The position numbers and the translations under genes are program-made. From Sphaerolaimus hirsutus (lineage: Eukaryota; Nematoda; Chromadorea; Monhysterida; Sphaerolaimidae), in the NCBI GenBank assembly GCA_964036195.1, contig OZ038460.1:8745504-8809503 (forward strand): a stretch of DNA of 64,000 nucleotides, written 5' to 3'. Shown here piece after piece: positions 3,095 to 62,772 of the stretch (positions are counted from its first letter, which is position 1; every line of letters begins with the position of its first letter). The notes under the pieces are model-generated. The model made no database searches. It saw only the letters and a program-made list of their open reading frames with translations, and was not told the origin of the DNA.

Positions 3095-6000
3095 ATGAGC
3101 TCCAGCCGCGCCTCCCCCACGCGGGTGCACTTCAGTCGGCTGCTGGCTGCGTGCAAGCGGCAGGCGGCCGCGCCGGGCGGCATCGCGTCGCACGACAGCC
3201 ACAAGTTCGGCTTGCTGGTGCAGCTGCTCGGCACACTCTACGACCAGGTGGTGGCCGAGGGCGGCAGCGATGTGGAGCAGTTCGTGGCTGCCGCCGCAGC
3301 TGATGTAGTGTTTTTGCATGTTTGATTGATTTGAGTAAACGTATTCTCTCGAAATACCCCCTTGAGTTCATGAACGAAACACTATTTTGGGTTTATTCCT
3401 CCTGCAAACGATGGAGGGGGTTTTCTAATTTTAGGGTTTGTCAAATGTTCGAAGGATCCTAGTGAGGAATACGCTTTGAAATACATAGATGTGACAGCAG
3501 AATATATTTTACACAAAGAAGTCTCTAGCTGCGATGCAAATGGGTGGCAATTATAGGATTATATATTTTCATTGTATACATGATGCACATTATTCTGGGG
3601 GTATAATTAGATTAAATGTGGTCATTAGTTTCCGTTCGGAAGAAGTTTCGGTTCGGTCGCTAGCCGAGCAAAACACCTCGCAGCGCCTAGTGGCATTCTC
3701 CCTGGACTGTGCCGACAGCCGTCTGCTGGCCACCAGCCTTCTGCCGGACAGAGCGGGTGCGCAGGCGGTCATCGCGGCGCAGGCGGTCATCGCGGCGCAG
3801 TCGCTCTCCAGCCAACCTGCCGTTGTCGCTGATGACAAAGTGCAGGAAGGGGGTGAACAGGGGGTGGATAGGAGGCAGATTAAAGCCAGGCCTAGAGCGC
3901 AGTGCGCCAGGGAATTGAGGTCCCGGTTGATGGGTACTGGTCGGTTGGGTGTTTCAACCGTGGATAATTTGAGCTTACCTAACGAATTTCGTTGGATAAT
4001 TTCTATCAAAAATGATCTTATGAAATTGTCCTGTAAATCCCAGCGGTCGGTTCTAACCCCAAATACTCTAGCCATCATATTTCCTCGGAATATCCCATTA
4101 ATTACCTCCCTCGATATTCCCCAGGTCTGAGCGAGCTGAGGAAAAAGTAAACCCGCGTAGAATAAGCCCCACCAAATCGAATCAACCCCCTCAAAATTTG
4201 CTGGCGAAAATCTAACCCCCTGGGGGTATTTTGAGGAAATTTACCTAGACCGTTCAAAGACGCAAGTGCCGGCGGCGGCGGCCAGCGACGACCAGCTGGT
4301 GTGCATGCACGAGCGGCAGCAGGAGCAGCTGGCCGACCACTTTCTGCAGCTCGCTGTCAACTTGAAGCACAACGTGCTCGCCTCTGGAGAGGTCGTCAAT
4401 GATGACAACACGGTGGGTTGGGTTGGAGGACTGTTTGTTTCGGTTTACCTGGATGTTAATTTCTGTGTGCTTCCCGGAGGCTTATTATAGTGGATACACA
4501 TGTGCGAATACGGGCGAGTTTTCTTGAACTGTTTTTCTTGTAGTGGCCTATGAACGTATTATGTTTTGCACATTATATTTCGGTCACATGCTTTTTTCCT
4601 GGACTTATCACTTCATTCATTCTAGTCATAATTATAATTATCAGTAGGTAGGATCGAGTTGCAAGTAAAGCGTTCACAGCCTTTGAAATTTAATAATCAA
4701 CCATCACATCGCGCGCGTCAACGTGTCACACTTCAAGTTGGGGCGTCAGTGCTAAGCGGTCCCCTGGTCTGTTCCCAGCTGCTGCTTCGGCGCTTGCTGC
4801 TGCGGCTCATGCGGCTGCGGCTGTGGCGCTGGCAGCGGCTGCAGCTGACCTGCCTGTTGCTGCTGCGGCGGCCCCAGCTGCTGCGCCTGCAGGTCCTGCT
4901 GCGGCGGCTGCGATCCCGCTGAGGTGAGCGGCACGTACTGGCCGGCCGAGCGGCGCTTAGCGATCGCCGAAATGTGCTCCGTGTAAGACCGCTGCGGGAG
5001 GGATCGATCTTCCGTATTTGCCCGAGTTACCCCCGGGGGGGGGGGTAGTTTTTCAGAGTGGAATTTTTTAAGGGGGTATTTCGAGTGGCGGGTTATCAAT
5101 TCATAGTAGCCATCGGGAGGTAAGGCGGGCTTTCAAGGAAATTAGATTCATTCGTACCAGAAATTCGAGCACGGTGGGGTGCATGTTCGGCGGGCCGGTC
5201 TGCAACGGGTCCAGGTAGCTGATGGCGTTGATCGCGTCGCCGTAGATGTACTCGAGCAGGGCGCGGTGTAGGAACAGGTACTGCGACTCGGTCTGCACAC
5301 TGCGAGATTCAATGGGCGCCCCAGTGTATTGAGCCGTTACTGTGCTTGCAGCTGGGGGCACCTTCCCAGACCTTGTAAAAGACCGTGTAAAATGACATGT
5401 AAACGACCCTGTAAAATGTTCTGTGTCATGTAAAAGACCCTGTGAAATGTCACGTCATGTATAAGACCATGTATAAGACCATGTAAAGTGTCAAATGTCT
5501 TGTAAGCGTTTTGAAGTATCCAAATCTTATTCCATAGTATCCAAATATTATGTTTTTGTATCCAAACCTTATGTTAAACATAAGATTTGGATGCTTCAGA
5601 TTTGTGTACTTTTACATGACATTTGACATTTTACAGGGTTTACTCTGGGACCATTGTTGGTTTTAGTAAAATTCTTTTTACTAAAGTTGTATTTTATTTT
5701 TATTAAAATTGTATTTTATTTTAATTTTATTTATGTTTCATTTTATTTTATTTTATTCTGAAATGTCATTAATAAAATAAAATGAAACCATTTTAAAAAA
5801 ATTTTACAAAAAAATCGGAATCTTGGATGCAAGGCCATAAAACAGTGTGCACGCTAGAAGCATGCAGATGAATACAAAAAATTTAATGACCCGTATTTTC
5901 TCGAAATCCCCCCCCCCTCGAAATACCCCCCGTCTCGAAATACCCCCCTCAAAATGGACACTATGAAATAATTACCCACCCCCTCCAAACCCCCCCCCAA

Positions 6001-9000: not shown

Positions 9001-12000
9001 GCTGCTCTTGGTGTAACACATGCAGCCGGGCTGGTGGGGGACACCGTGCATGTACACAGCACATTTCAGAATTTCCTGCATTTGGAGCTACGGACTGCTG
9101 AAAACTGCAGACGGGAGTTTTAGTGCCAATTTCAGACCTAAAGTAAAGTGTTAAGTAATGTGTCAAATGCCATGTAAAATGTCATGCAGTGTCAATTGTC
9201 ATGACAAATGTATAGTAACGTGTCGATAGTCATGCAAAGTCCAGTAGTAAATTCTTTCTTTTTTATTGACATTTGTTATGACATTTTACAATTTACTTTA
9301 CACTTTACAAGGCCTGGGGCCAGTTCCGCAAGTGGACAAGTTAAGAGTTAAAAGTTAAGAGTTGAGTAAAATGACAAATGACAAGTTATGAGTAAAGTTA
9401 AGAGTTAAGAGTTGAGAAAAAAGACAAATGATTTTACTCAACTCTTAAGTTTTAACTTTACTCTTAACTTATCATTTATCATTTTACTCAACTCTTAAGT
9501 TTTAACTCTTAACTTTTCCACTTGCGGAACCGGCACCTGGGACTGCCCCTTGGTATTTCACTCTACCTACAGGCTTTGTTTGTAACAGTATAGATCGCGC
9601 CGTAAAGGGAAAACAAGCTGGGGGTTCTACGCGGCCACCCTGCACCCTGGCGTGGTCGAGCACGAACCTCTCCATCCTCCTGCTGCACCGCGGACGTGTC
9701 GGTCGCGGCGGATTCTTTCTCGTTCGAAACCATCATGTGCGGCAGGCAGCTGCGCGTGGTCGCCTCCTTTTTCTCCTTGTTCTTGCGCTCCCTGGGGGCA
9801 CTTCCAAACCATGTAAAAGCCCTGTCAAATGTAAAATGCCTGCAAAGTGTCAAAAGTCATGGAAAATGCCCTGCAAAATGGCAACCGAGATGCCATTTGG
9901 CAGGGCAGTTTCCATGACTTTTGACACTTTGCATGACATTTGACATTTTACACGGCTTTTTACAGGGTCTGGGACTGGCACCTGACCGACGGCGCCTTGC
10001 CGCGACGAGACAGATTCAGCGGTCCGCAGCGACCCAGGCCGCCCTTCTGTTGACGCGGAAATAAAGTTTGGGTAATGTTGGTTGTTAACTGGTGTGCGTG
10101 GAACCGATGAGGTATCACTCGAATAATTCTCCCACGAGGCGTTTTCGCCACTTTCTAACTGGAAATTTTTTTCGAAAATTGAATTTGGGTAATTACACGT
10201 ACAATGATAATCCTGTACTGGTGTTATTCGATGGTGAATTTTTCACCACTTGGTTACCACTGGGGTGCTAGGAGATACTGAATGTAATACGGTAGACATC
10301 AAACTAGGTACTTATCGGCACTAATTAGTGATGGAATGGCGCCATGGCGCTTGTGCTTTTTAATGGCGCCAATTGACGCTAGCACCATGGCACCTTTCGC
10401 CATTTTTCCCGGCACTTTTACATCACTAGTGCCGATCAGCTATTACCTTCTTCTCTCGTTTCGATTCTCTCTTTGACTCGGCCGATCTATTCTTGCGTTC
10501 GCGCTTCGATTTCGATGTCGGTGCATTCGCGCTCTTTGGGCTGCGGTAAATGTTTTGTGCGTTGGTTTGGATCCATCGACTGTTGGATATCGATATTTCT
10601 ATGCTTTTTTGATATTTAGGATATTTAGGTGTCTTGTGTTGCGTTAAAATTTACGATTCGATATTCGATGAAAAAACTGCTTAATACCATACACTGTTCC
10701 GATCTTGGCCCACTTCTAGGGGCCAGTTCCGCAAGTGGCAAAGTACTTTACTGTTTACTTTGAAATTTACTCTTCACTTTACTCTTTACTTTTCTCTTGA
10801 CTCTCCGTTTATTATTTTACTTTTTTGTATTACCCTTTAGGTAATCTTTACGTTATTCTTTACTTTTAACTGTGCACTTTTCTTTGCTACTTCCGGAACT
10901 GCCCCCAGGTTTCAGCCTGAGACAAAAACAATCCACACACATCCATAAATAAAAAATCATGAGAAGAAACTCAATTACAAATCTAAATATGTAGGCAATT
11001 CATGTTTGTTTGTCACTTGTTTATTTTCTATAAAAAAATGTTTTTGTGAACATGTGTTTGTCTCACGCTGAAACTGGGTGCAGTGGCGTGGTCTTTGGCG
11101 CTTCATGCGTGGGTGGGGTAACCGGAAGCGCACTTCTTGCCCTTCGGTGTATGTGCTCCAGCTTGCTTTTCTTTGTCACCTTTCCGCTGTGTTCCCGCTG
11201 ACGTATCCTTGCGTTGTAAACGTTTGGCTATTATTTAGGTAGCGTATATTAGTGTGTTTCATAGGTAGTTGTTAAAACGTATTTACGTTTACGCGATAAA
11301 TACGTGTACTCGAGTACTGCGTGAATACGTTTAGTCCCGAAAACAATACCGGTACTCACTTACCGCGTACTTTCTGAAAGTACGCGAGTACAGAAAACGT
11401 AACTGTGAAAAAATTGTCAGGTGCATGAAAACCAAAAACTACTCAAACAAATTGAATGGGCTGCAAAAATGGCACCGGAAATGATAGAAGTTAAGATGGG
11501 TAAGGGAAGCGACGAATCTCACTTTCACGTTCTCTCTTTTACATCTTCCTAGGAACAAAATTGAAGGAAAAATTACTTTAACGTCTTCCCTGATAAAAAT
11601 ACTGGTATTTCCGTTTACTCACCTTTTACGCAGCTTAAAAGTAAAAAAATTTCGTTGCGTTCTCTGTACTCGAAGGTGAATAAAAATAAATACTTTACGT
11701 TTTCGTTTACTTTGAAAACAGTTCAGTACTTCTAACAACTATCGTGTTTTTCAAAGGGGGAGGGTACTGACCCGTTTTGCGCGTATACTCCGCTCCTTTG
11801 GATTCTGTCTGCGGCCCACCGCGCCGGCCCCCTTCTCACCGTCATTTTGTTGCTGAAAAGTGTACGTTTTGAATGGCTAATGGCTAAATGCTGGTGATGT
11901 TAATAGTAAAACCACAATGCAGACAAAAGCTTAAGCAATCTATTGAATAGCTCCACAATATCGGCATTAACTAAGCTACGTGATCCATTGAATTAAAATT

Positions 12001-13598
12001 CCTAAATTGTAGGATGCTATGCATTACGTTTGGGTAGCATTTAGATAAGTAAGTCTGTATGGCGTCACACACGCTGGATGTCAACTGAATCGTGTCAACT
12101 AAATTTTAGTGAATTTTGTGATTTCAACTTTCCTATCTGATAGAGCACAGTAAATTTTACACAATGACACTTAATTTTCATTGTTTCTGTTAAGTGGGAT
12201 GCCTTAAAAAAGTTTTTGTGTTATTTAGTTGACATTGAATTCACACGAATTTCCTATGTCAACTAGCGTGTGTGGGCCCTAAATTCAAAGTAGGAATTTT
12301 CACACCACTCCTGGCGACATTTACCTTCGGCGCTACGACGTTGTCCATGCTTAAATTTGAAACTTTCTTGGTGGGGTGGTAAATTTCCGTCTTGGGTCGG
12401 ACGTTCGGGGTGGTTGAGCCGCCGGCCGCGTGTCGCTGCCTTGCAAGGTTCTAGTTTCCCGATCGCCCTCCGCTGCTCGCCTATTGGATGTTCTCGGTGT
12501 GGGCGCGGCTGCTTTTGTTGCGTCTTTTGGATGTGAATTCGGCGCGGAAAGGTCTACTTGTGTGGCGGATTACAAGTTTTTGGTGTTGAGAAAAAAGGAT
12601 TGTTCTTGTGTAGTCATTGGAAGTGTAGGTACTCGAAATGCGACAAATCACCCAACCAAATCTCCCAAATCACGACATTTTCTCCATGAAATCCATGAAT
12701 TCCATGAAAAACTCTCCCAAACTGAGTTTTGTTCTTTCAATTATTGAGTTTACAGTTTATCAAAATTTGTGAGTTCCTGTGTTTCTGTGTAAAACAAAAA
12801 CACACAAACTAATCAGTTCTTAGTTAAAAAAGTGTATTATTTCCATAAGTATGAAATTGTTTCATGTTGGGGTTAACATGGTAAATCGAAGCTCCTGACA
12901 GGAGGTGGGGTAGGTCTGGAAAAAGTTAATCATTCAAAAAATTTGGGTTGTCACCACAAGGTCATTCCGAGACCCTGTAAAATTTCAAATGTCATGCAAA
13001 GTGTCAAAAGTCATGAAAATGTCATCAAAAGCAGCAGAAAAAGAAAACTTGACATTTTACATGACTTTTGGCACATTGCATTGCATTTTACAGGGTCTGG
13101 AAATTTACACCAGACCCTGCAAAATTTGAGCATCAATAACTTGACCAATTCTACCTCAATAACCGCCCGCCCCCTAGAATGCTTTCCCAAATTGCACCTA
13201 TGCACACAATCTCCTCGCAGCGCCTGTCGCGGCTGCACAAGCAGGCGGACGCGAACACGATCAATCTGCACAGGGAGGCGAGCAGGTGCCAGTCCCGGAC
13301 CCTGTAAAATGCCCCGTAAAATGTCAAATGTCATGCGCAGTGTGAAAGGTCATGGAAAATGCCCTGCCAGCGTACGTTTGACATTTTCCAGGCAAAGTTA
13401 CATGACTTCTGACACTTTGCCTAATTTTTGACATTTTACAGGCCATTTTACAGAGTCTGTGACTGCCCCAGGCTGGAGCAGATCGCCAGGCGCGCCTGCT
13501 GCGACTGCGGCCTCTTGTTCCTGTTGGCCATGGTCACCGTTACTTTTGTGGGCGTCGTTTTATTCATGCGCTTCTTTCCTAAGAGAGCTGGGTATTGA
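3095..13598 (+). CDS. USE1: Vesicle transport protein USE1 (ER Q-SNARE)
   Basis: USE1 is a tail-anchored SNARE that, with syntaxin 18, SEC20 and SEC22, drives fusion of Golgi-derived carriers with the ER. Exons read: 3095-3304, 3455-3520 (tentative), 3684-3933, 4267-4412, 13221-13285 and 13472-13598. They total 288 codons, close to the usual ~260 aa. Exon 3 ends with RARELRSRLMG-like residues matching the conserved (A/S)R-x-EMRSELLG stretch. Exons 4-5 form the SNARE helix (LVCMHERQQEQLADHF..., NDDNTRLSRLHKQAD...). Exon 6 continues REASR-LEQIARRACCDC into one C-terminal membrane helix and a short FFPKRAGY tail. The exon 5/6 intron is exactly one palindromic element (see 13286-13471). Exon 3 has a tandem 18-bp duplication (AQAVIA twice). 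The 8.8-kb intron 4 contains an opposite-strand phosphatase gene. Exons 1-2 and the exon 4 acceptor (GACGCAAG) are the least certain parts; the last two exons are very sure. Confidence 0.85.
4752..10540 (-). CDS. Protein tyrosine phosphatase-like protein, catalytic Cys replaced by Trp
   Basis: Exons (transcript order): 10447-10540, 9982-10046, 9668-9791, 8821-8985, 8638-8784, 8237-8411 (or to 8179), 7906-8028 (or from 8044), 7654-7848, 7087-7222, 6903-7014, 5158-5299, 4752-4991. The Lys/Arg/Ser-rich N-terminus is followed by a classical PTP fold: MEDFALHLGRM..., KNRYKDVPC, NYTNDYIHASYV, VDHWRMLWQE, the WPD loop WTGWPDKSVPPN, then VVVHWSAGIGRTG and VQTESQYLFLHRALLEY. The signature HC-x5-R-T reads H-W-S-A-G-I-G-R-T: the nucleophilic Cys is Trp (TGG, 7190-7192), so phosphatase activity should be lost while the Arg and WPD Asp remain. 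The C-terminus is a Gln/Pro-rich tail. All visible junctions agree in phase except 8237/8028. The intron at 9792-9981 is a precise palindromic element. The whole gene lies in USE1 intron 4. A scaffold or substrate-trapping role is inference. Confidence 0.82.
5358..5645. mobile_element. Palindromic GTGCCAGTCCC-family element, diverged
   Basis: The left arm (CTTCCCAGACCTTGTAAAAGACC) and right arm (ACAGGGTTTACTCTGGGACC) are inverted copies with TGTAAAATGTCA-type units between. It lies in the phosphatase intron 5300-6902. On the gene strand its end reads GTGCCCCCAG, the usual 3' end of the family. Confidence 0.55.
5888..6331. repeat. Foldback repeats with C-rich/G-rich arms
   Basis: Two diverged copies of the CCGTATTTCCTCGAAATACCCCC family lie end to end. 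They have arrays of CCCCCTCGAAATA units and right ends like TATTTCAAGGAAATTCGGTAG. They fall inside the phosphatase intron 5300-6902. Confidence 0.5.
7284..7634. mobile_element. TA-flanked foldback MITE (CCGTATYACCTCGAA ends)
   Basis: It begins CCGTATCACCTCGAAATAC and ends GGAGGAAGTACGG, with a TA on each side, inside the phosphatase intron between the signature exon and the WPD exon. TA duplication and terminal inverted repeats point to a Tc1/mariner-like non-autonomous element. Confidence 0.65.
9118..9550 (-). mobile_element. Palindromic element with a second element nested inside
   Basis: On the minus strand the outer copy begins GGGGCAGTCCCAG/GCCTTGTAAAGTG and ends near GGTCTGAAATTGGCAC. 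It is split by an inner copy (9318-9536) of the GTTCCGCAAGTGG subfamily. The inner copy is flanked by a perfect 4-bp duplication CCAG (9314-9317 and 9537-9540) and is itself nearly a full palindrome of AACTCTTAA-type units. The nesting shows that the two subfamilies moved at different times. Confidence 0.72.
9792..9981 (-). mobile_element. Introner: palindromic element that is a complete intron of the PTP-like gene
   Basis: On the minus strand the exon reads ...TCG GTC AG and is followed by GTGCCAGTCCCAGACCCTG. A 190-bp near-perfect palindrome ends GTGCCCCCAG, and coding resumes G GAG CGC AAG. Joining AG|G restores Arg in frame, so both intron borders coincide with the element ends. The 5' GT lies in the element. 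The 3' CAG lies at its end or in the duplicated target (TCAG/CCAG). Confidence 0.85.
10722..10905. mobile_element. Palindromic element, CCGCAAGTGG subfamily
   Basis: It begins GGGCCAGTTCCGCAAGTGG and ends CTTCCGGAACTGCCCCCAG, with CTAG/CCAG-like flanks. The interior is made of TTTACTCTTTAC-type units. It lies in the region upstream of the phosphatase exon 10447-10540. Confidence 0.65.
11270..11740. mobile_element. hAT-type element with ACGTAAACGTAAAT arrays
   Basis: It starts GTTGTTAAAACGTATTTACG and ends with AAAACAGTTCAGTACTTCTAACAAC. The arms are AAACGTAAATACG arrays and the middle is non-coding. It belongs to the family with exact 8-bp duplications at 62289 and 58909. I did not find a clear duplication here. 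Confidence 0.55.
11772..12435 (-). CDS. Possible upstream exons of the phosphatase-like gene
   Basis: Two segments look like 5' exons on the minus strand. 12325-12435 (111 nt, 37 codons) starts after a CAG acceptor and ends at AAG|GTAAAT, encoding a Ser/Thr/Pro/Lys stretch that ends NVVAPK. 11772-11852 (81 nt, 27 codons) lies between TTTTCAG and CGG|GTCAGT and encodes a basic, Gln/Arg-rich peptide. Both are in phase 0, and their composition matches the basic N-terminal region of the phosphatase gene downstream. A further basic open stretch lies at about 11100-11210, but its junctions do not fit in phase. No initiator ATG was identified. Confidence 0.4.
12062..12286. mobile_element. Palindromic element with CACACACGCTAG ends
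   Basis: The left end CGTCACACACGCTGGATGTC and right end ATGTCAACTAGCGTGTGTGG are inverted copies. Related copies lie at 37021, 41066, 50921 and 61595. The interior has no coding sequence. It sits within USE1 intron 4. Confidence 0.65.
13286..13471 (+). mobile_element. Introner: palindromic element that is the last intron of USE1
   Basis: The exon ends GCG AGC AG. The element starts GTGCCAGTCCCGGACCCTG and runs 186 bp as a palindrome of TGTAAAATG/CATTTTACA-type units with a GTACGTTT centre, ending ACTGCCCCAG. Coding resumes G CTG GAG CAG. The AG|G join gives Arg, so REASR-LEQ is continuous as in other USE1 proteins. A second GT 18 nt inside (CCCT|GTAAAA) would also keep the frame. Confidence 0.88.
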
Positions 13599-26326: not shown

Positions 26327-33810
<7,484 letters not shown>

Positions 33811-44774: not shown

Positions 44775-47700
44775 ATGCTGTCGGACGTGTTGTCGTCGGC
44801 GAACCTGCTGCACCGGCGGCACCCGGTGTCAGTCCCAGACCCTGTAAAATGTAAAATGTCATGCAAAGTGTGAAAAGTCATGGAAAATACCCTGCAAAAT
44901 GGCAAATACGTTTGCCATTTTGTGGGGCATTTTACATGACTTTTGACACTTTACATGACATTTTACATTGACAGGGCATTTTACAGGGTCTGGGACTGCC
45001 CCCCGGACGACGACCTGATCGACCGACTCCATTCCTACTACACGACGACCTTGCTGCTGTGCAGCTCGTTGCTCATCAGCGCCAAGATGTTCGGCGGCCG
45101 CCCACTGGAGTGCTGGGTCCCTGCTGAGTACACCAAGAGTTGGGAGGACTATTCGGGTGCGGTTGGGTAATGTGTGAATGGAAAGATTGTTGGGAGATTT
45201 GGTTGTGTGTGCGCATGGCGATGGCTGGAATTATACATACCGTGAATTTAATTAGTTTGTAATCTTCTGTCTGGCTTGAGATGGCCCATATATTCGTGTA
45301 TTATTTCTGCTTTTTGCATGATCATGATTAATACTTTAAATGGATTTTTCATTAGTTGATACTGTCCTGTATTGCTCATTTTTTAGAACTTTCTGAACAA
45401 ATTCTATTCAGCGTACTAGAATCGATGACCCTGTACCTCTAACGCTTTAGAACTTTCATAAACCGAACCGCAACGATTTATATCACCAGCCAACGAGCAG
45501 GCGGGATCATCACCCGACAAAGAATGCATTAAAATACCCGTTTGACGCGCTGCAAAATCGCCGTCGAAACCTCAAATACCCATCGTTTTACTGTCGTTGA
45601 TCTTGATTTCGATGTGCTTTGCTAGCGGCCGCAAAGTTTGCACAGCCAACTACAGAGTTTGTGCAATCAAAGCGTCGCACCGCATGGCTTTTCGCACGGC
45701 GTGCGGGATGCGTCATGTCCTCACTTAAACAAGCTTGCACCTCAAAACGTAATAAAAACTCGCGCCAGCGAACTGGAGGGTCCCGTTGTGCCAGTAGAGG
45801 CTAGTCACGCTTGTATCACTTTAACTGTGACGGAATTTTGTCAGCCGGACTTTTTTCAGACAGTGCATGATTCGTGTGTTTGAGGCTCGTATTTATTTAC
45901 ATTTTCCGATCAGACTGTACGAAAAAAGCGTTGGGTTATAATTAAATTTCCGTGCGTTGCAATGTATACTCCAGTCGACTTTACACCTCGCACTTGTTGT
46001 TCACGTTGGAAGCATGCCAACTAAAGTTATGCCAACGGTAAAGAAATCATTTCTGTTATAGTGTTTTACCTTAACGTATTCACAACAATAATCTTTCATA
46101 TTTCTGAGAAATCGCACGCTTTAACTAGCATTGGAACGCTTCCAACGCGAGACACAAATAACTGCGCTTGCAGAGTGTCATGTCACTGAAGTATAACTGC
46201 GCTGGGCACATATTCACACTGCCGCGTCGACCCAGATCCCGAGACGAGTACAAATCACCGCCATGTCGCTGCCGTCGTTCCTGTCGGGCATGTCGTTCTT
46301 CGTGCCGCAAACCGACGACGACCTGTCCGACCAGCTGCACTACTACTACACGTCCACACTGCTCATGGTGCTCGCCGGCGCCACCGCCGCTAAGCTGCTC
46401 GCCGGCCGCCCCATCGAGTGCTGGGTGCCCTATGAGTACAAACTAGGCTGGCAGGATTATGCCGGTGCGGTAGCGTAGAAGCTTTGTTTGCCTGTTTTTG
46501 AATAGTTGTTAGAGTAGTGATTTAGACTTCAGAAGGTTTCCATCGTTTTGGTGTGTTCATAGGGTGTCAAAAATTTTTTTTTACGGAAAACGGAAAACGG
46601 AAAGGTACAATTTTTTCACTTTACGGAAAACGGAAAGGTAAAAAAAAAATTTCTGCCGGAAAACGGAAAACGGAAAGGTAAAAAAATTTCACTCAGCGGA
46701 AAACGGAAAACGGAAAGGTAAAAAAAATTGTCGGCCGGAAAACGGAAAACGGAAAAATGAAATGCCGGAAAACAAAAAACGGAAAGCAAAATTTTCACGG
46801 AAACGGAAAAAATAAAGTGAAATTAGCATGGGAATAGACAAATTTGCAGAAGGAAAACCTGCATGCAGGTTTGCCTGTTTGGCTTTGATTGTGGTAGCTG
46901 TACATTCTGCAACTATGGATCATGCCTGTAACTTCACTTGTAGTTCAAGCTTAACTGTACCAACAAAAAATCATCAAAAAGTAGCCATAGTGGCCATAGG
47001 AAAGGAAACACTACGACAATTTCAAAGTCTAGAAGCAGTGGGAATCACTGATGACTCCTATGCAATTGATGACAACATTGCAGAGGAGATGATAATAAAT
47101 AGCATAAAATTCAAAGACAACAACAAACAATACTATATTGACTGGCCGTATAAAGAGAGTATCAGTGACCTGCCCACGGGAAAAGCAGAATCCTTGGTGC
47201 AGTTTAAATCACTGATAAGAAGATTCAACAAAGATCCAAACTTATACGAACAATACCAGAAAGTTTTGGATGACCAACTAGAAAAGGGAATAATTGAGAT
47301 CTGTGATGACAAAACAGACAACAAGGGGATTCATTACCTGCCACACCAGCCAGTAATCACACCGGGCAAATCAACATCATGCAGAATCGTGTACAATGGG
47401 TCGGCAGGTAAGCCCAGTTTCAACGAGTGCCTTTTTAGAGGACCAATTACAATGCCATTAGCACTGGGCCTACTCCTGAGGTTCAGGGCAGGCAATCTAG
47501 CATTAATTGCCGATATTGAAAAGGCATTTTTGCAAAGAGGATTGCATGACCAAGCTAGAGACTACACACGATTTTTCTGGCTGAAAGATGCCTCAAAACC
47601 AGTAACTGAAAATAATATAATAGTACTTTGTTTTAAATGTGTACTGTTTGGACTTGTCTGCAGCCCAGCAATTTTGGGAGCAGTCATAAAATACCATTTA

Positions 47701-50700
47701 AATGTGACAATAAACAACATGAATGAATATGAAGAAAATGAAGGGGAACGAAACCAGTTGGCGATGATAATAAACAACATTTATGTTGATAACTTCATCA
47801 TGAGTGTCACGAATGAAGTTGAAGCTTTAGAACTATATTACAAAGTCAAAGCTTTATTTAACCAATGTTCTATGAACATGAGGGAATGGCTGTCAAACTC
47901 CAGATCAGTCATGAATGAAATAGCAGAAAACAACAGGAGTCCAAAGGTGAATAAAATTGTCGCAGTAATGGGCATGAAATAAAAGCACCGAACGGACATG
48001 CTGGCAATATCAACACCAAAATTGCAAATTGACAGCATCACAACACCAACCAGACGAAACTTGAATATATTATTGGTGTCAGCATATGACCCAATTGGGT
48101 TCACAGCACCTGTTTCACTGACCCTGAAATCCCAGTTGTCAATGCTGCTCCAAGAGACAAAAACATCACAATGGGATGAGCCAATTGAAGATGAAGACAG
48201 ATTGGAAAAACAATGGAAAAATGCCAGAAAACTGAAAATTGAGCCAGAAAATGGAAAAATGGCCTGGTAAAACGGAAACGGAAAGGTAAAAATTTTTCAG
48301 CCGGAAAATGGAAAAATGGGCCGGAAAAACGGAAACGGAAAGGTAAAAAATTTTCAGCTGCCGGAAAACGGAAAGGTAAAAATTTTTTGGCTGCCGGAAA
48401 ACGGAAAACGGAAAGGTAAAAATTTTTCGGCTGCCGGAAAACGGAAAACGGAAAGGTAAAAAATTTTCCTGCGGAAAGGCGGAAACGGAAAATGGAAACG
48501 GAAATTTGACACCCTAGTGTGTTCCACTTTGGGATGGAAAAACTTTTTTTCAACGACCACGTTTAAAAAAAGGTTTAAAAAAACCGTTTTTTAAAAGCTC
48601 CCAGATATGGTTATGATTTAAGTGGATATGGTTAAGTGGCTGTACTTTGTGATGTAGTATATTGCCATACAATGGCTATAGAGCCATGGGATAGCATTAT
48701 AATTAGTGATTTCTGTCAAAAACATCATTTTGTTGTTTCATTACGTATATTGCCCTTTGACAAATGTTCGTGACTTCAAGTGAAGTTGGGAATGGAATAC
48801 CGGTACAGGTAATGCTCAGAATAGGTATTTATAAGAGACTAGATGAATACATTGCCAGTGATGTTTCACACTGTAGAAGTAGATATGTGGGAGCACATAA
48901 ATGGCTGGATATTAAGTACAACAGTAACACAGCATGGCTTATTATAACACAAAAGCATGAACAAATGGAAGCTTGAGCACTAAAAATCAGACAAAACAAA
49001 TGAAAAGAATCACCAATGGTAGTGTATGTAAAATTGCGCGCTTGCGCGCAAAAATTGCAAAATACCTAGTGCTGAAGTATTTACATTATAAAATTTTGAC
49101 TGAGGTTTACAAAAAAACGGTTTCCGTGCTTGCATATTAAAACAACAACGTTTAAAAAAACCTTTGAAAACCCCCGGCCATCTCTAGTTCTCTTTTATGA
49201 AATGTTAACTGACAACGACATCTTAAATAACTCAACATGTGCACCCCCCTTGCCCAGAAATGTACTGCTGGGCTCGCAACACTTATTTCGTGCCATTCGA
49301 CTCGTCGATCCCCACCGATGAAGACGAGAGGGACGCTCATCAAGTGTCCTATTACCAATGGACGCCATTTTTTCTGCTCGTCTGCGCTTTTGCATTTTAC
49401 TTTCCGTGCATTCTGTGGCGAGCTATGAACGACAAGTCTGGTGAGTGGTGGTGAAATACTGATTATTAAATTTTGCGGTGTTTTTCAATTTTTTCTCTAC
49501 AGTCATCGACATATTTAGAAGAAGTAAAGTGTGTAGATTTCCGGCGTCTGGGTGAAAATGTCAATGGTCACCCAATGACATCACTGCACATAAATACACT
49601 TTGATAAAAAATACGCGCGTACTTTACACAGGTATCCGTCTGCGCGACATCATCTCCATAGCACAAGACAAGGCGAACATCCAGCCGGCCGCGCGAGAAG
49701 CCAACATCCAGGGATTGGCCGTCCACCTGTTGTCCATTTTCCGGCACCAGTTTTCGTTGAGGCCGGGCAAACGCCATGGGAACCTCATGGGGGACAGGTC
49801 GCCCCAGCAGCCCACCAGGGGCAAGCACACCATCGCCAGGTGCGTTAGTTTCTTGTCGATTGATTTGAGTGATTTGAGCAACATGTCGGTTTTCTCATCA
49901 AACCGGGCAGTCGACAGTGTGTAACGGTGCTAGAGGAGTTCGTGTGCTTGTGATTAGTGATGGAAAAGCGCCAAAAAAGGGCGCCATTCGAATACAGTGC
50001 GCCAGGCACCACGGAAAACGTGTACCGAACGCCAATGGCGCCATTCCATCACTACTTGTGTTACAAATAAAATAAATTCTCGTTGGAAAATGTTTAAACT
50101 GAATACAACTCTCCATCATCAAGTGCTATCAAATCAGTCAGATAAATTCACAACATCGCTTTCTCAACTCAGATGGTTAAACTGGCGTTACTACGAGGCC
50201 TATATGGCACTGACCTATTTGGGCATCAAGATACTGTATCTGGCGAACGTGACTGTGCAATTGTTCCTCATGAACAGCTTTCTGCAAACGGACGACTATG
50301 GAGTGTATGGATTTGGTGTTTTGTATGACTTGCTGAAAGGAAGAGGTGAGTTTACTGCGGCGCCGAATGGCATATCGTTACTCAATCTTCAACTAGGTGC
50401 CAGTCCCAGACACTGTGAAAGACCATATAAAATGTCATGTGTCATGTTATGTATAAAACCCTGTAAAGTGTCACTAGTATCCAAATCTTACTCTACGGTA
50501 TCAAAATCTTATGTTTTTTATCCAAATCTTATGTTTAATCGTGAGATTTGGGTACAAAAATTGATTTGGATACTAAAGAATAAGATTAGGATACACATGA
50601 AACATAACAGGGTCTTTTACAGGGTCTGGGGCTGCTACTAGGTATCTAGAAAATAGTTACAAACGACACGCCCGCTCGCAGAATGGCAAATCTCTGGCAA

Positions 50701-53700
50701 CTTCCCGCGGGTGACCCTGTGCGACTTCCACATCCGCGTGATGGGCAACGTGCAGCGGCACACGGTCCAGTGCGTACTGGTCATCAACATATTCACCGAG
50801 AAGCTGTTCATCTTGCTCTGGCTGTGGTACAGTGTTCTGATTGCGCTCACGCTAGCCAGCTGCGCCTACTGGGCCGTGACTTCTTTCTCACCAAAGCATC
50901 GCTATAGGTGCGTTAGTAATGGCACCCCACACACTAGTTGACACATGTGTGTCAGTGGTCTGTGTCAACTCAGATGTGGGCTTCATGCGTCGTAGAGCGA
51001 TCTTCCAATGTACTTGATGTAATCTTTATTTTTCAACATTGCTGCATGTGCATTTGGAGATCGCCCTGCGACACATAAAGCTAAAATCAGAGTTGAACAG
51101 ACCAGGTGGCAGTCCCAAGCCCTGTAAAGTGTAAAGTAAAGTGTCAATGTGAAGTCAAATGCAAAGTAAAATTGTCAATTGTCATGCAAAGTTTAGTAAT
51201 AAAATTTTTTTGTTGTGTTTTTGATTGACACTTTACTTTGCATTTAACTTTACATTTGACACTTTACACTTTACAGGGCTTGGGACTGCCCCCAGTTGAC
51301 ACACGTGTGTCTACTACGGTGTGGGCCGCCTTTATCGGGTTTTGGTTGTTAAGTGATTCAAATGCTGCGGCGACATCTAGCTCTATTTAAGGGTTCCACT
51401 AAAGTGCCGCCAGAAATCCCAACAAAGGTACATAAATATCTACCAGTTCCAGTGCCACGCAGATTCGTGGGTCGCCGTCTCGAGATGGCCGACACAGAAT
51501 TCGACCTATCAGACAACTCCGACGACGTGGCGCGCTTCACGCACGATCTCGTCAAAACCGACGGCGTTTTTGTACTACGAATGATAGCCGTGCACGCGGG
51601 CGCCATGTTCGTGACCGAATTGGTTGATGCGATGTGGGACATCTACGTGGCCGAGCAGCGTAAGTCTGTGCTGTTCTAAAGGGTCCTGTGCCATTATGCA
51701 TAAACCAATCACACATGTAGGCATGTTATGTTACCGATCACGCGTGTAGACGCATCACGCAGGGGCGTTTCCAGGGGGTGGAACCCCCCCCCCCGTTTCC
51801 GGGTTGAGACCTGAAAAATCCCGAGAAATGCAAATTTTCTTGTCATTTTGAAGGTATCTACGTGGAAAAAATTTCCACCATGCGCTTGGTATTGTCAGCA
51901 GATTGGCCTCCATAAACACAAATCTTTGAAAATTCACTGTAACGTGTTTATGTCGCTGTATTTTATGTATACTTATTTGTATTTGCTTGAAAAGGTCCCA
52001 TCTTGAATAATCCCCCCCCTCGAATAACCCCCCCCCCTGTAAGACGAGTGAGGAAATAATAATTCCCCCCCCCCCCCTTTAAAGATTTGATTAATTTGTT
52101 AGACCTGATTTTAACAAAAATGGCTCGTTATTGTGTTTATAAGGCAGATTTTGTGAACTGAGTTGATGGAAACATGCTTGAAAATTTTGACGAAATTATA
52201 ATTTCCCCCCCTTGAATAATTCCCCCCCCCCCTGGAATAGTACCCCCCTCAAAAATGTCTGACGAAATAATAATCCCGCAGGGGGATTATTCAAGCAAAT
52301 ACGGTACCTAAAATACATAAACAGTCCTGGCATAAACAGTCATAAATAATCCTGGCGCCAGTGCCAACGCCACTGACGCCATGGTGTGGCGCCTACGAAT
52401 GGAAACATCGGTCGTCTGTCAGTTGTAAGAAACATTTTGCAGGTGGTGAGCCAGAACTGCCGCCCGGACTACTGGCCCCGCTGCCCGAGGAACACGGCAA
52501 ACACGATGGCTCTGAGGTGGAGACTGGCGGAGGTTTAGGTTGGCACAGTAATATTTATTTATATCAGATCCATTGAGTTTTGACTGTATCATCCAGGGAC
52601 CAGTACCGCTTGCAAAGTACTTTACACTTTACTTTATCTTTTACTCTTAAATTTATACTTTACTCTTTAATTTCCGTTTTTCATATTACTTTATTTTTTA
52701 CCTTGCTCTCTAATCTTCACTTTACCCCCAACTCTTTACTTTACTCTTTACTTTTCACTTTATTCTTCACTTCGCGACCTGGTGCCCTCAATCAACACTG
52801 TAAATTGGAGGAAACCCATTATTTAACCACTGCGACTTGTAACCAGAGTTGGAAAAACGTATTTACGTTTACCCAAAATACCCGGTTATTTGGGTATTTT
52901 TATTTACGTTTACGTTTACGTTTTCCAAAAATACCATTACGTTTTGTTACGTTTTCCTGACCGAAATACCTGGGTACTTATGAAAACGTAAAAATTCCGA
53001 TATTTAGTAGTTTCTTAGTGGTTGTGCCATTGGACAGAACTGCATATTTCCATGAATTGTCTACCGATTATGATGCTTGGGCACTTGAACTGATCAGAAT
53101 GAAGTGGCGATCACTTTAGTGCATCGATTAGAATGATTACAAACAATACGTCAAATATTTAATATAGTCCAATACATAGCCACTATTGGTTACTGAATGG
53201 AGTCAATGTCGCACATAAAAATGTAACTGTATTTTGTCATAAACTGACAACAAATTATGAACAAAATAGTGAAAGAAATGTAATATTTATCATGAAAAAT
53301 TATACACAATTTTAGGTTCCGTCTTCATATATTTAGGTATGGCTGATGTCATAGTATATTTTATGGGACATTTTTCCAAAATAAGCTAAACAAACAGTTT
53401 TAAAACTTGCAATGCACTGAAGCTGTGTGCGGCTTGCGAGTCGACATATTGGCTTTAATAATGACACACAATGGCTTTAATAATGACACATTTTTTAATG
53501 ACCATTTTGGTTTTAATGTCACTATACTTTGGCTTACCTAGCGAGGTACTTTGGCTTTACAGTCGATGGGTTAAATATCGGGTAGCTTTAATCTCGCTAT
53601 ACTCTCGTACATTGTCGCAGACGTTCCGCACGCGGGGGGCGTGCGCTTGCCCCGTCCGGCCGGTCGGCCGATCTTGCGCAGAAAGAACAGCGTGTTCGTG

Positions 53701-54494
53701 CCGCTGATGCTCGGCGCCGCCGCCGCGGCCGCTGTTCCCGCCGCCGCCGCCCAACAAAACTGTCAGTGGCTCAGTATAGATATAAACGCACATTTATCTA
53801 ATTATAACTGCGCTTAACGTTCCAAAAATCTCGGGAGATTTATATTTTAAAATATAAGAAAATACAATAATAAATATAATATTTATTTAAATTTTTTCGG
53901 GGGGGGGGGGGGTTCCGGAGAGATTTAATTATACTTTATTTACGAGAAGAAGAAAAAATGTCATTTATATTTTTTATATTTATCTTTACTTATTTTCTCT
54001 GCGTTTTCTTAGAGAGATTTAATGATATTTTATATTTTAAGAAATTTTCTAAGATAATATTTAATTAATTTTTCCGAGAAAAAGACCATTTTTGGAACGC
54101 TAACTGCGCTCAATGGGCACTTTACAACTGTTTGCAGCTCCACCCGGCGCTGGCGGCCGTTCAGAGTCGCCAGGGGGCAGTCCCAAGCCCTGTAAAGTGT
54201 AAAGTAAAGTGTCAATGTAACGTCAAATGCCAAGTAAAGTGTCAATCAAACCAAGAAAGAAAAGATTTTATTACTGAACTGGCATGACAATTGACAGTTT
54301 ACTTTGCATTTGACTTTACATATGACACTTTACTTTACCCTTTACATGGCTTGGGACTGCCACCAGGTTCGGCTGGCAAAGAGCCAGCCACTGCACCAGT
54401 GTTCCTCAGGCAGCCCATGTTCCAGACGCAACGCAGCAGACACAACACGCTGCTTGAAAGGCGGCTCGCCAAAATGGCTGAACAGAATGAGTAG
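44775..54494 (+). CDS. Innexin gap-junction channel protein with two alternative first exons
   Basis: This is a four-membrane-pass protein forming invertebrate gap junctions or hemichannels. Shared exons: 49258-49440, 49632-49839, 50173-50345, 50682-50907, 51463-51659, 52443-52532, 53621-53761, 54138-54173 and 54367-54494. First exon 1b is 46263-46464; 1a is 44775-44825 plus 45006-45156. With 1b the protein is 527 aa, in phase throughout. Signatures: DDDL-(I/S)D-x-LHYYYTST, GRPIECWVP, YCWARNTYFVPF, SYYQW-PFFLL, the IQPAAREANIQGL loop, [51 protein letters not shown] with extracellular Cys pairs, and EKLFILLWLWY. The C-tail is Gly/Ala/Pro-rich. Exon 1a is split by a palindromic element, and the exon 9/10 boundary coincides with another. 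Nematode-like in sequence; which innexin paralogue it is cannot be decided. Confidence 0.92.
44826..45001 (+). mobile_element. Palindromic element inserted in innexin exon 1a
   Basis: Coding sequence ...CGG CGG CAC CCG is followed by GTGTCAGTCCCAGACCCTG. The palindrome ends GGGTCTGGGACTGCCC, then a repeated CCCG, then GAC GAC GAC CTG. The 4-bp duplication is CCCG (44822-44825, 45002-45005). Removing element plus one duplication (180 bp) rejoins HP-DDDL in frame and gives an exon of exactly 202 nt, the length of exon 1b. Because the target ends CG rather than AG, precise splicing at the border is impossible. Confidence 0.88.
45157..46262. other. Region between innexin exons 1a and 1b
   Basis: No exon was recognised in about 1.1 kb. 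It could hold a separate promoter for exon 1b. Confidence 0.4.
46559..48516. mobile_element. hAT-type GGAAAACGGAAA element carrying a BEL/Pao fragment
   Basis: It has ends ATAGGGTGTCAAAAATTTTT and AAATTTGACACCCTA, flanked by a perfect 8-bp duplication GTGTGTTC (46551-46558, 48517-48524). GGAAAACGGAAAGGTAAAA arrays occupy 46570-46815 and 48255-48505. The middle is retrotransposon coding sequence (next entry). Same ends and array type as 15340-15960. Located in the innexin intron after exon 1b. Confidence 0.85.
46828..48270 (+). mobile_element. BEL/Pao LTR-retrotransposon polymerase fragment
   Basis: An open frame of 384 codons (46828-47982) encodes part of a BEL/Pao reverse transcriptase: a region upstream of the fingers, YLPHQPVITPGKST, RIVYNGSA, then LIADIEKAFLQ (first catalytic Asp) and a YVDN box where YVDD is usual. 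After a stop a second frame (47998-48270) continues with the post-RT region (DPIGFTAPVSLTLKSQL). No LTRs, gag, protease, RNase H or integrase are visible. The altered active-site box and the stop indicate a dead copy. The base composition is AT-rich, unlike the innexin exons. Confidence 0.85.
48525..49257. other. Repeat-derived stretch upstream of innexin exon 2
   Basis: No exon was recognised. TTTAAAAAAAGGTTTAAAAAAACC near 48560 and AAAAAAACGGTTTCC near 49110 suggest inverted ends of another element. The hairpin GCGCGCTTGCGCGC lies at 49036-49049. Confidence 0.4.
49955..50054. mobile_element. Short hAT-type element, TAGTGATGGAAAAGCGCC ends
   Basis: It has ends TAGTGATGGAAAAGCGCC and GGCGCCATTCCATCACTA, 100 bp. 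The 8-bp duplication is CTTGTGAT / CTTGTGTT (one mismatch). Located in the innexin intron after exon 3. Confidence 0.8.
50397..50637 (+). mobile_element. Palindromic element in innexin intron after exon 4
   Basis: It begins GTGCCAGTCCCAGACACTG and ends AGGGTCTGGGGCTGCTA, flanked by a 4-bp duplication CTAG (50393-50396, 50638-50641). It sits 51 bases after the GAG|GTGAGT donor, so it enlarges an existing intron rather than making one. Confidence 0.82.
50921..51330. mobile_element. CACACACTAGTTGACA palindrome with a nested palindromic element
   Basis: The outer ends are GGCACCCCACACACTAG and the TGTCTACTACGGTGTGGGCC complement. The inner copy 51106-51291 (GTGGCAGTCCCAAGCCCTG ... AGGGCTTGGGACTGCCC) is flanked by CCAG on both sides (51102-51105, 51292-51295). 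Located in the innexin intron after exon 5. Confidence 0.8.
51994..52304. mobile_element. Foldback MITE, CAAATACGG variant (innexin intron)
   Basis: The right end is ATTATTCAAGCAAATACGG followed by TA. The left end is diverged (CCCATCTTGAATAATCC). The arms are long C-rich CCCCCTCGAATAAC units. Confidence 0.65.
52596..52785. mobile_element. Palindromic-family element with TTTACTCTTTAC units
   Basis: The start GGGACCAGTACCGCTTGCAAAG and end CTTCGCGACCTGGTGCCC resemble the CCAGTTCCGCAAGTGG family. The interior is TTTACACTTTACT units on one strand, so the palindrome is largely lost. Confidence 0.55.
52844..53430. mobile_element. hAT-type core with ACGTTT arrays
   Basis: It starts CAGAGTTGGAAAAACG, with an array of TTTACGTTTACG units to about 52990. 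Then comes an AT-rich core (about 53010-53430) that closely follows the cores at 1700-2150 and 54790-55600, whose arms are GGCACC arrays. No right end was found. Confidence 0.65.
54174..54362 (+). mobile_element. Introner-like palindromic element between innexin exons 9 and 10
   Basis: The exon ends GAG TCG CCA G. The element begins GGGGCAGTCCCAAGCCCTG and ends GGCTTGGGACTGCCA, followed by the repeated target CCAG and GT TCG GCT. The 4-bp duplication is CCAG (54170-54173, 54363-54366). Joining at the duplication gives SESP-G-SAGKEP in frame. This copy has lost the terminal GT (GG). A GT 18 nt inside (CCCT|GTAAAG) would still splice in frame to the CCAG acceptor, adding six residues. Confidence 0.85.
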
Positions 54495-55859: not shown

Positions 55860-56197
55860 GACTAGTGTGTAGCACAATCCGGAATTTCGGAAAAGGGTAA
55901 ATCTACATCGGATGTATTTGAGTTTACCGGAACGAGGAGTCTTTTAATGGGGATTTAATTTGATGAAATATACCTTGGTTAGTACTTGATTGATTTACTA
56001 AAAGTTTGTTGTAATAAGTCAATCTACTACTACACTGGGTAAGGCTACATAAATATGTAAGTATTAATGATGTGTCATACTTTAAATAGAATAGGTAGGT
56101 AACTGTTATCACGATACTCACTTCATCACAGTGTGTTCCATGACGTTTACGCAGTTTCGTCACAAAAATGTTATTCACATTTTGGTGCACATCAGGG

Positions 56198-56392
56198 CGC
56201 ACTCCCAGACCCTGTAAAAACCCCTATCAAATGTCAAGTGTCATGCAATGTGTCAAAATTGATAGAAAATGCCCTGGAAAATGGCAAACGTACGTTTGCC
56301 ATTTTCCAGGGCATTTTCCATGACTTTTGACACTTTGCATGACATTTGACATTTGACAGGGCTTTTTACAATGTCTGGGAGTGACACCAGTA
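56198..56392. mobile_element. Palindromic element with central GTACGTAC palindrome
   Basis: The arms CACTCCCAGACCCTGTAAAA and TTTTTACAATGTCTGGGAGTG enclose AAATGGCAAACGTACGTTTGCC, a nearly perfect hairpin of ~195 bp. Confidence 0.8.
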
Positions 56393-56715: not shown

Positions 56716-56864
56716 GTGCCAGTCCCAGACCCTGTTAAATGCCCGGTAAAATGGCAAACGTACGTACGGTTGCCATGTTACCGTGCATTTTACATGACTA
56801 TTGACACTTTGCATGACAATTGACATTTTACCGGGCATTTGACAGGGTCTGGGACTCCCCCTGA
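56716..56864. mobile_element. Palindromic element, 4-bp duplication TCAG
   Basis: It begins GTGCCAGTCCCAGACCCTG and ends CAGGGTCTGGGACTCCCCC, flanked by TCAG (56712-56715, 56865-56868). It is a short copy (149 bp) with the usual CGTACGTACG-like centre. Confidence 0.82.
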
Positions 56865-62583: not shown

Positions 62584-62650
62584 CATTACGGCCGGATTTA
62601 CTTTACGGCCGGGTTTACTTTACGGCCGAGATCTCGCCATGCTGATCTAG

Positions 62651-62772
62651 GGGCACTCCCAGACCCTCTAAAAAGCCCTGTAAAATGAAAAATGACATGT
62701 AAAGTGTCATATGTCATGTAAAATGCCCTGGAAAATGGCAAACGTACGGTACAGGGTCTGGGACTGGCACCT
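62651..62772. mobile_element. Truncated palindromic element
   Basis: The left arm CACTCCCAGACCCTCTAAAA is followed by units up to GGCAAACGTACGGTACAGGGTCTGGGACTGGCACC. Most of the right arm has been deleted next to the centre. Confidence 0.7.

Follow-up and report, generated by a model that had tools for sequence, protein, structure and literature searches.

How an intron can come to share its borders exactly with a repeat is the question raised by the last intron of USE1 in the 64-kb stretch of DNA analysed here (hereafter the window). Introners are regarded as the main source of new introns. The initial annotation had read this intron (13286-13471) as a single inverted-repeat element that supplies both splice sites, occurs about 20 times in the window, and was most likely created by insertion as an introner. 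The sequence, GCG AGC AG/GTGCCAG...GACTGCCCCAG/G CTG GAG, bears out the exact filling of the intron and the splice borders, with GT as the first two bases of the element and CAG closing the interval. The reading that all 186 bp are element holds for 13286-13468, but not for the final CAG (13469-13471), which repeats 13283-13285 and is a copy of the target-site duplication (TSD). At the sequence level, the intron is confirmed to be a copy of a non-autonomous DNA transposon, consisting of the 183-bp element and one 3-bp CAG copy of the TSD. When the exons are joined (LHREAS^RLEQIARR), their product matches Pfam Use1 (PF09753, E = 3.5e-14) across the junction, with residues 27-84 aligned to profile positions 186-243 and no net gap. 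By sequence reading, the element and TSD are all that lies between the two exons, and the preceding USE1 intron ends in cag. The USE1 copy is an imperfect palindrome, with 77-nt arms that are 75% complementary and spaced by 22 nt, and its RNA fold of -71.5 kcal/mol (z = -7.1) is equalled by none of 200 shuffles.

The genome-wide search for the repeat that the initial annotation had proposed was carried out in the source assembly (348 Mb, 762 contigs), and found the family throughout. The first search, in which 40 of 3,094 first-look candidates were scored, gave at least 81 scored matches on both strands, among which the palindromic element is often counted twice. We aligned 28 distinct loci, with L014 and L017 dropped as identical places on the opposite strand, and built a consensus from 26 of them, leaving out L009 (a near copy of L004) and L019. 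The consensus is a 192-bp palindrome, perfect except at positions 2, 4, 189 and 191. Folded with CAG on both sides, it forms a single long hairpin (-172.1 kcal/mol, z = -27), equalled by none of 200 shuffles. The element has a polarity, with GTGC (opening with GT) on the left and CCCC on the right. In the whole genome, 665 exact left-type ends and 770 exact right-type ends adjoin CAG or CTG, with a slight surplus of the right type (p = 0.006). The comparable counts indicate that the element kept its polarity as the family spread, pairing a left-type with a right-type end.

We defined 86 full-length copies as those with a score of at least 50 bits and both ends inside the profile limits, after removal of flank duplicates. 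Their median identity to the consensus is 0.93, indicating that the family is still near its consensus. The genome probably contains ten thousand copies or more. Specifically, the 147,754 bases flanking 55 loci contain 23 copies of at least 50 bits, or 156 per Mb, which extrapolates to a genome total of ~54,000, a figure biased upward because the sampled flanks lie close to copies. A whole-genome search for the left-end pattern with up to two mismatches returned 8,061 matches, which may include right ends.

In the window itself, the profile finds 19 non-overlapping hits at E <= 1e-3, in keeping with the "about 20 copies" first noted. Only 9 of them reach 50 bits and 4 reach 100 bits, so that most are partial or diverged rather than intact (Table 1). 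For the copy in the innexin gene, the Innexin match (PF00876) starts 2 residues past the joined 44825/45006 junction, and the left side of this junction is poorly informed. Introner ends around a different interior, with TATCCAAATCTTATG repeats, are seen at 50397-50635 (+) and 5352-5640 of the window and at locus L051; the shared termini and different interiors indicate several MITE subfamilies with common ends.

Table 1. Positions in the window of the USE1 exons, the introner and other copies of the family.
Feature	Position	Strand	Basis or remark
USE1 penultimate exon	13221-13285	+	Start inferred from AG at 13219-13220; Pfam Use1 over junction
Left TSD copy, closing CAG of the penultimate exon	13283-13285	+	Sequence
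Introner element, 183 bp	13286-13468	+	Begins GTGCCAGTCCC, ends GACTGCCC; gives donor GT
Right TSD copy CAG, predicted 3′ splice site	13469-13471	+	Sequence, TSD analysis
USE1 last exon, C-terminal membrane anchor	13472-13598	+	Stop TGA 13596-13598; Pfam Use1
Copy in innexin gene, coding context	44826-45002	+	TSD CCG 44823-44825 and 45003-45005; 3′ end without AG
Copy, TSD CAG	9795-9981	-	Joined flanks open in one frame; no Pfam match
Copy, TSD CTG	56197-56387	-	No coding context seen
Shortened copy, same element	56716-56861	+	Profile hit
Shortened copy, same element	62650-62770	-	Profile hit
Diverged relative, ends GTGGCAGTCCCAAGCC, TSD CAG	51106-51292	+	Profile hit
Diverged relative of the 51106 type, TSD CTG	54174-54363	-	Profile hit
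Partial diverged copy just upstream of USE1 exon	12963-13101	-	Both strands score alike
Element with same ends, other interior	50397-50635	+	Profile hit

Both hallmarks of a DNA transposon, a TSD and terminal inverted repeats (TIR), are present in the family: the consensus is palindromic, and an exact 3-bp TSD was recognised in 65 of the 86 full-length copies, with the border allowed to move by -2 to +3 bases. The flanking consensus of the insertions is CCWGG, and the rarer TSDs include other CNG triplets, such as the CCG of the innexin gene. The PHIS/Harbinger family NuwaI, found in animals only, is marked by a CWG TSD and a TIR that usually starts with GGG, as given in the sections consulted of the paper describing it (PMC4482050). 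The introner shares the CWG TSD (CAG or CTG in 62 of 86 copies), and its right end begins GGG (GGGGCAGTCC, GGGGC), but its left end is GTGCC, with T for G at position 2; the same sections do not describe intron-making for NuwaI (PMC4482050). The element thus looks NuwaI-like and may belong to the Harbinger/PHIS superfamily. The change from G to T at left-end position 2, which completes the donor GT, may be the step that made the introner.

The Harbinger nuclease domain PF13359 has 163 matches in the same genome, many of them carrying an additional stretch of about 190 bp. This stretch was considered as an introner inside the transposase gene, an idea rejected upon reading one copy, which has two plain GT-AG introns and no match to the element. 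In a copy belonging to the commonest PF13359 family, the end that was read, the downstream one, has no introner end motifs. No transposase or Myb gene linked to introner ends emerged from that reading, and no transposase was recognised among the long coding frames read at one-ended element loci. More than 100 near-identical PF13359 places have two small GT-AG introns each and ends that differ from those of the introner, indicating a recently active transposon family. A separate inverted-repeat element at 12060-12290 of the window has termini (GGGCCCACACACGCTAGTTGAC...) similar to that found on the abundant PF13359 transposon of L112.

We read junction-spanning frames for all full-length copies with sufficient flank, and scanned 38 distinct coding-looking junctions, picked by eye, against Pfam (34 sense and 4 antisense). 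A match above the cut-off spans the joined site in 12 of the 34 sense junctions, which represent 11 different genes, and in 1 of the 4 antisense ones, L021, where an AMP-binding match places 71 residues against 67 profile positions. The remaining 25 of the 38 have no spanning match above the cut-off, and several of these look coding by eye only. The sense families are USE1, SGLT-like SSF, K2P-like Ion_trans_2, DUF2452, Xan_ur_permease, Oscp1 (two copies at one locus), Srx-type receptor, AMP-binding, E1_dh, homeodomain and zf-C2H2. Removal of the element and one TSD restores conserved proteins, including homeodomain, SGLT, K2P, OSCP1 (twice), BCKDHA, SLC23 and USE1. Specifically, the junction is gapless against the solved structures of SGLT1 (PDB 7sl8), BCKDHA and SLC23A1, the homeodomain aligns at 57 of 57 positions across the junction, and the OSCP1 alignments pair 42 with 42 and 50 with 50 residues. 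The homeodomain introner (L082, 1504-1696) lies in a posterior-Hox-like gene (KPYTKYQ^TLELEKEF), and the OSCP1-like gene (L037, G000:C1, about 3.59 Mb) carries one introner at CAG and one at CTG. A third copy lies within the same 3 kb. Across the 12 sense junctions in 11 genes, near-identical introns sit at unrelated positions, with similarity stopping at the splice boundaries. Supported by the same element and 3-bp TSD interrupting unrelated conserved domains, each restored exactly without the element and one TSD, insertion of the transposon is most likely what made the USE1 intron, as first proposed.

In addition, we trained a codon-usage score on 15 coding copies and applied it blind to 71 held-out copies. 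A coding-like frame over the junction (score > 0.15) is found in the sense orientation in 13 of the 71 and in the antisense orientation in 1 (p = 0.0018), with ratios of 8:0 above 0.25 and 2:0 above 0.35. Any open frame of +-20 codons is found about equally in both (52 sense and 53 antisense of 71). No coding-like frame above 0.15 crosses the junction in 57 of the 71, and animal genes are intron-rich; both would agree with a MITE that entered pre-existing introns, its fit to the splice sites being coincidence or later boundary slippage. Such an origin is highly improbable, given USE1 exons separated by the element and TSD alone and an exact fit at 12 sense junctions in conserved domains, twice in OSCP1 and once in a homeodomain.

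The sense bias favours removal from RNA, in which the GT end is needed upstream, over excision from DNA, and from the restored frames we infer that the element is taken out at the RNA level by the spliceosome. Precise removal of DNA, transposase-like or by programmed elimination, would also leave the flanks without the element and one TSD, and would make a TG acceptor unnecessary for the CTG and CCG copies. It should, however, ignore gene orientation, whereas 13 coding-like copies lie in sense and 1 in antisense; moreover, the asymmetry between the ends coincides with the donor GT, and right TSDs drift to CAG, never the converse. We regard DNA removal as very improbable. With high confidence, we read the USE1 intron as an introner derived from a palindromic, non-autonomous MITE with CWG TSDs, whose splicing in sense orientation would restore the message.

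According to this reading of the borders, a transposase made elsewhere would insert the element at a CWG target (consensus CCWGG) and duplicate 3 bases. In a sense insertion, the left TSD remains as the closing codon bases of the exon, the element opens with the GT that forms the donor, and the acceptor lies in the right copy of the TSD, so that splicing would restore the original message. The near-perfect hairpin would pair the internal GTAAAATG with TTTTACAG, drawing the ends together. Motifs that resemble good donor and acceptor sites, CCT/GTAAAATG and TTTTACAG/GG, recur in the arms of the consensus and look stronger than the terminal sites, and splicing could instead use them and keep pieces of the element in the message. 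Counted on the consensus, 37, 49 or 61 nt would stay in the message if donor and acceptor were both internal, and 19 or 31 nt if the terminal donor were joined to an internal acceptor; every one of these lengths breaks the frame. The in-frame 18 nt left by an internal donor with the TSD acceptor would land within a homeodomain and within transporter helices, and the motifs are paired in the predicted hairpin. Use of the internal sites is accordingly improbable in our estimate, and the terminal GT and the TSD are the splice sites that we prefer.

The acceptor itself varies with the TSD. The 12 Pfam-supported sense junctions comprise, as left/right TSD, 6 CAG/CAG, 4 CTG/CTG (SLC23-like L058, OSCP1-like L037, Srx-type L056 and BCKDHA-like L091) and 2 CTG/CAG (K2P-like L023 and AMP-binding L098). 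The 3′-end AG, a canonical feature of U2 GT-AG introns, is present in CAG copies such as that of USE1, and absent in the coding CTG/CTG and CCG/CCG copies. The presence of CTG/CTG copies within conserved coding sequence indicates that TG-ending copies are tolerated there. As the internal AGs would shift the frame, GT-TG is the simplest fit for the CTG copies, their exact position inside conserved coding sequence implying GT-TG introns. Alternatively, the genic CTG/CTG copies could be unspliced, harmful or polymorphic insertions, with only the CAG copies being true introns. AG is the rule for acceptors, and the surplus of CAG and the changes from CTG to CAG described below show AG to be favoured. 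Nevertheless, judged by identity to the consensus, the four CTG/CTG coding copies (0.915-0.970) are no younger than the eight CAG copies (0.875-0.964), and the held-out codon test gives equal numbers of CTG/CTG and CAG/CAG copies (5 and 5). We consider it unlikely, though deserving of serious weight, that the CTG copies are unspliced.

Genome-wide counts of exact ends bear on the preference between the two acceptors. Left ends have CAG in 395 and CTG in 270 cases (p = 1.4e-6 for the bias), and right ends have CAG in 502 and CTG in 268, a CAG share above that of the left (p = 0.024). Among the copies read by hand, a left CTG is accompanied by a right CAG in 7 of 32, and a left CAG by a right CTG in 0 of 35 (p = 0.004; 6 of 31, p = 0.008, without the ambiguous L028), counts that are not fully independent in that a few copies are segmental duplicates. 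This table omits 2 copies with a left CTG and other right ends (L003, L096), 5 with a left CAG and other right ends (L018, the second copies of L038 and L082, L084, L088), and 12 with other left triplets. Reading by script gives the same direction, with right TSDs changed from CTG to CAG at 6:17 versus 0:29 for the converse (p = 0.005). The surplus of CAG and the one-way change of the right TSD indicate that the AG acceptor is favoured; AG thus seems to be preferred over TG, judged from these sequences.

In the CTG and CCG copies, the spliceosome may use the internal AG (TTTTACAG) 19 nt upstream for step one and ligate the exons at the NG of the TSD, so that GT-TG introns result; a right TSD that mutates from CTG to CAG would then be at an advantage. 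All four CTG/CTG coding copies retain TTTACAG or a similar AG 19 nt ahead of the TSD end, and the SGLT copy (L011, CAG TSD) has no internal AG near its end. In the human data available from PMC2374985, a TG acceptor is always the alternative to some AG no more than 28 nt away and is never the sole 3′ site; the internal AG of the element could be such a partner. As a control, two introns of a Harbinger-like transposase gene in the same genome have GT-AG borders (our reading of one gene copy). With modest confidence, we favour the view that one family made thousands of animal introns whose 3′ site is whichever CNG was duplicated, that GT-TG (and GT-CG) introns are spliced constitutively without an AG at the junction, with the AG of the element 19 nt upstream serving step one and ligation occurring at the TSD, and that selection later turns TG into AG.

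Introners are already known, including some with 3′ sites derived from the TSD (PMC9860276), while GT-TG introners are few, in Micromonas (PMC3879977), as far as the consulted parts of these sources go. What appears to be new here, by sequence, is an animal family of palindromic MITE introners whose acceptor varies with the duplicated target. The families of the 2022 introner survey are likewise intron-making DNA elements, non-autonomous and bounded by TIRs and TSDs, and some carry the 5′ splice site and borrow the 3′ site from the TSD (PMC9860276, Fig. 2C). They differ in that the survey has two animal groups only, with families of 5 to more than 2,000 members per genome, and the portion of its text that was searched names neither a CWG TSD nor a Harbinger-type origin (PMC9860276); unlike the families given there, the TSD here itself varies between CAG and CTG. 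The IE-B and IE-D repeat introns of Micromonas also have GT-TG splice sites, but belong to an alga, with 25 (IE-B) and 6 (IE-D) members in the excerpts consulted and lengths of 100-6,494 nt for IE-B (PMC3879977), whereas the present family is an animal MITE with TG and AG copies side by side, following the TSD. The hairpin introns of Amoebophrya are likewise bordered by direct repeats, of 3-5 nt, and have non-canonical splice sites, but, in the sections consulted, these dinoflagellate introns have no family-specific inverted repeats (PMC7789003), whereas the ends and the GT donor are constant within the single family described here. Fritillaria borealis likewise has an animal spliceosome that removes introns outside the GT/AG rule, but it is a tunicate with 95% non-GT/AG introns according to the consulted part of PMC13326754, whereas here the animal bears innexin and its transposase-gene introns read as plain GT-AG. 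In the literature searched, which was mostly open-access and had a 2025 introner survey outside its scope, we found no animal introner family whose acceptor follows the TSD.

With its large membership still near the consensus, this animal family would amount to a natural experiment: across thousands of insertions, the acceptor alone (CAG or CTG) changes against a fixed donor, hairpin and interior. It could be used directly to ask how strict the spliceosome is about the 3′ AG, by what route the terminus of a transposon is turned into a splice site, and how selection repairs a weak acceptor once the intron has arisen.

Two further features of the window were observed. A long open frame at 46816-47982 (+) resembles a BEL/Pao retrotransposon polyprotein, judged by eye from the list of open reading frames. 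Short tandem coding-like repeats of the DRDRD / PDPDPDP kind, with a further 18-residue protein stretch, lie at 27400-27680 and at locus L062, and are recurrent in the genome.
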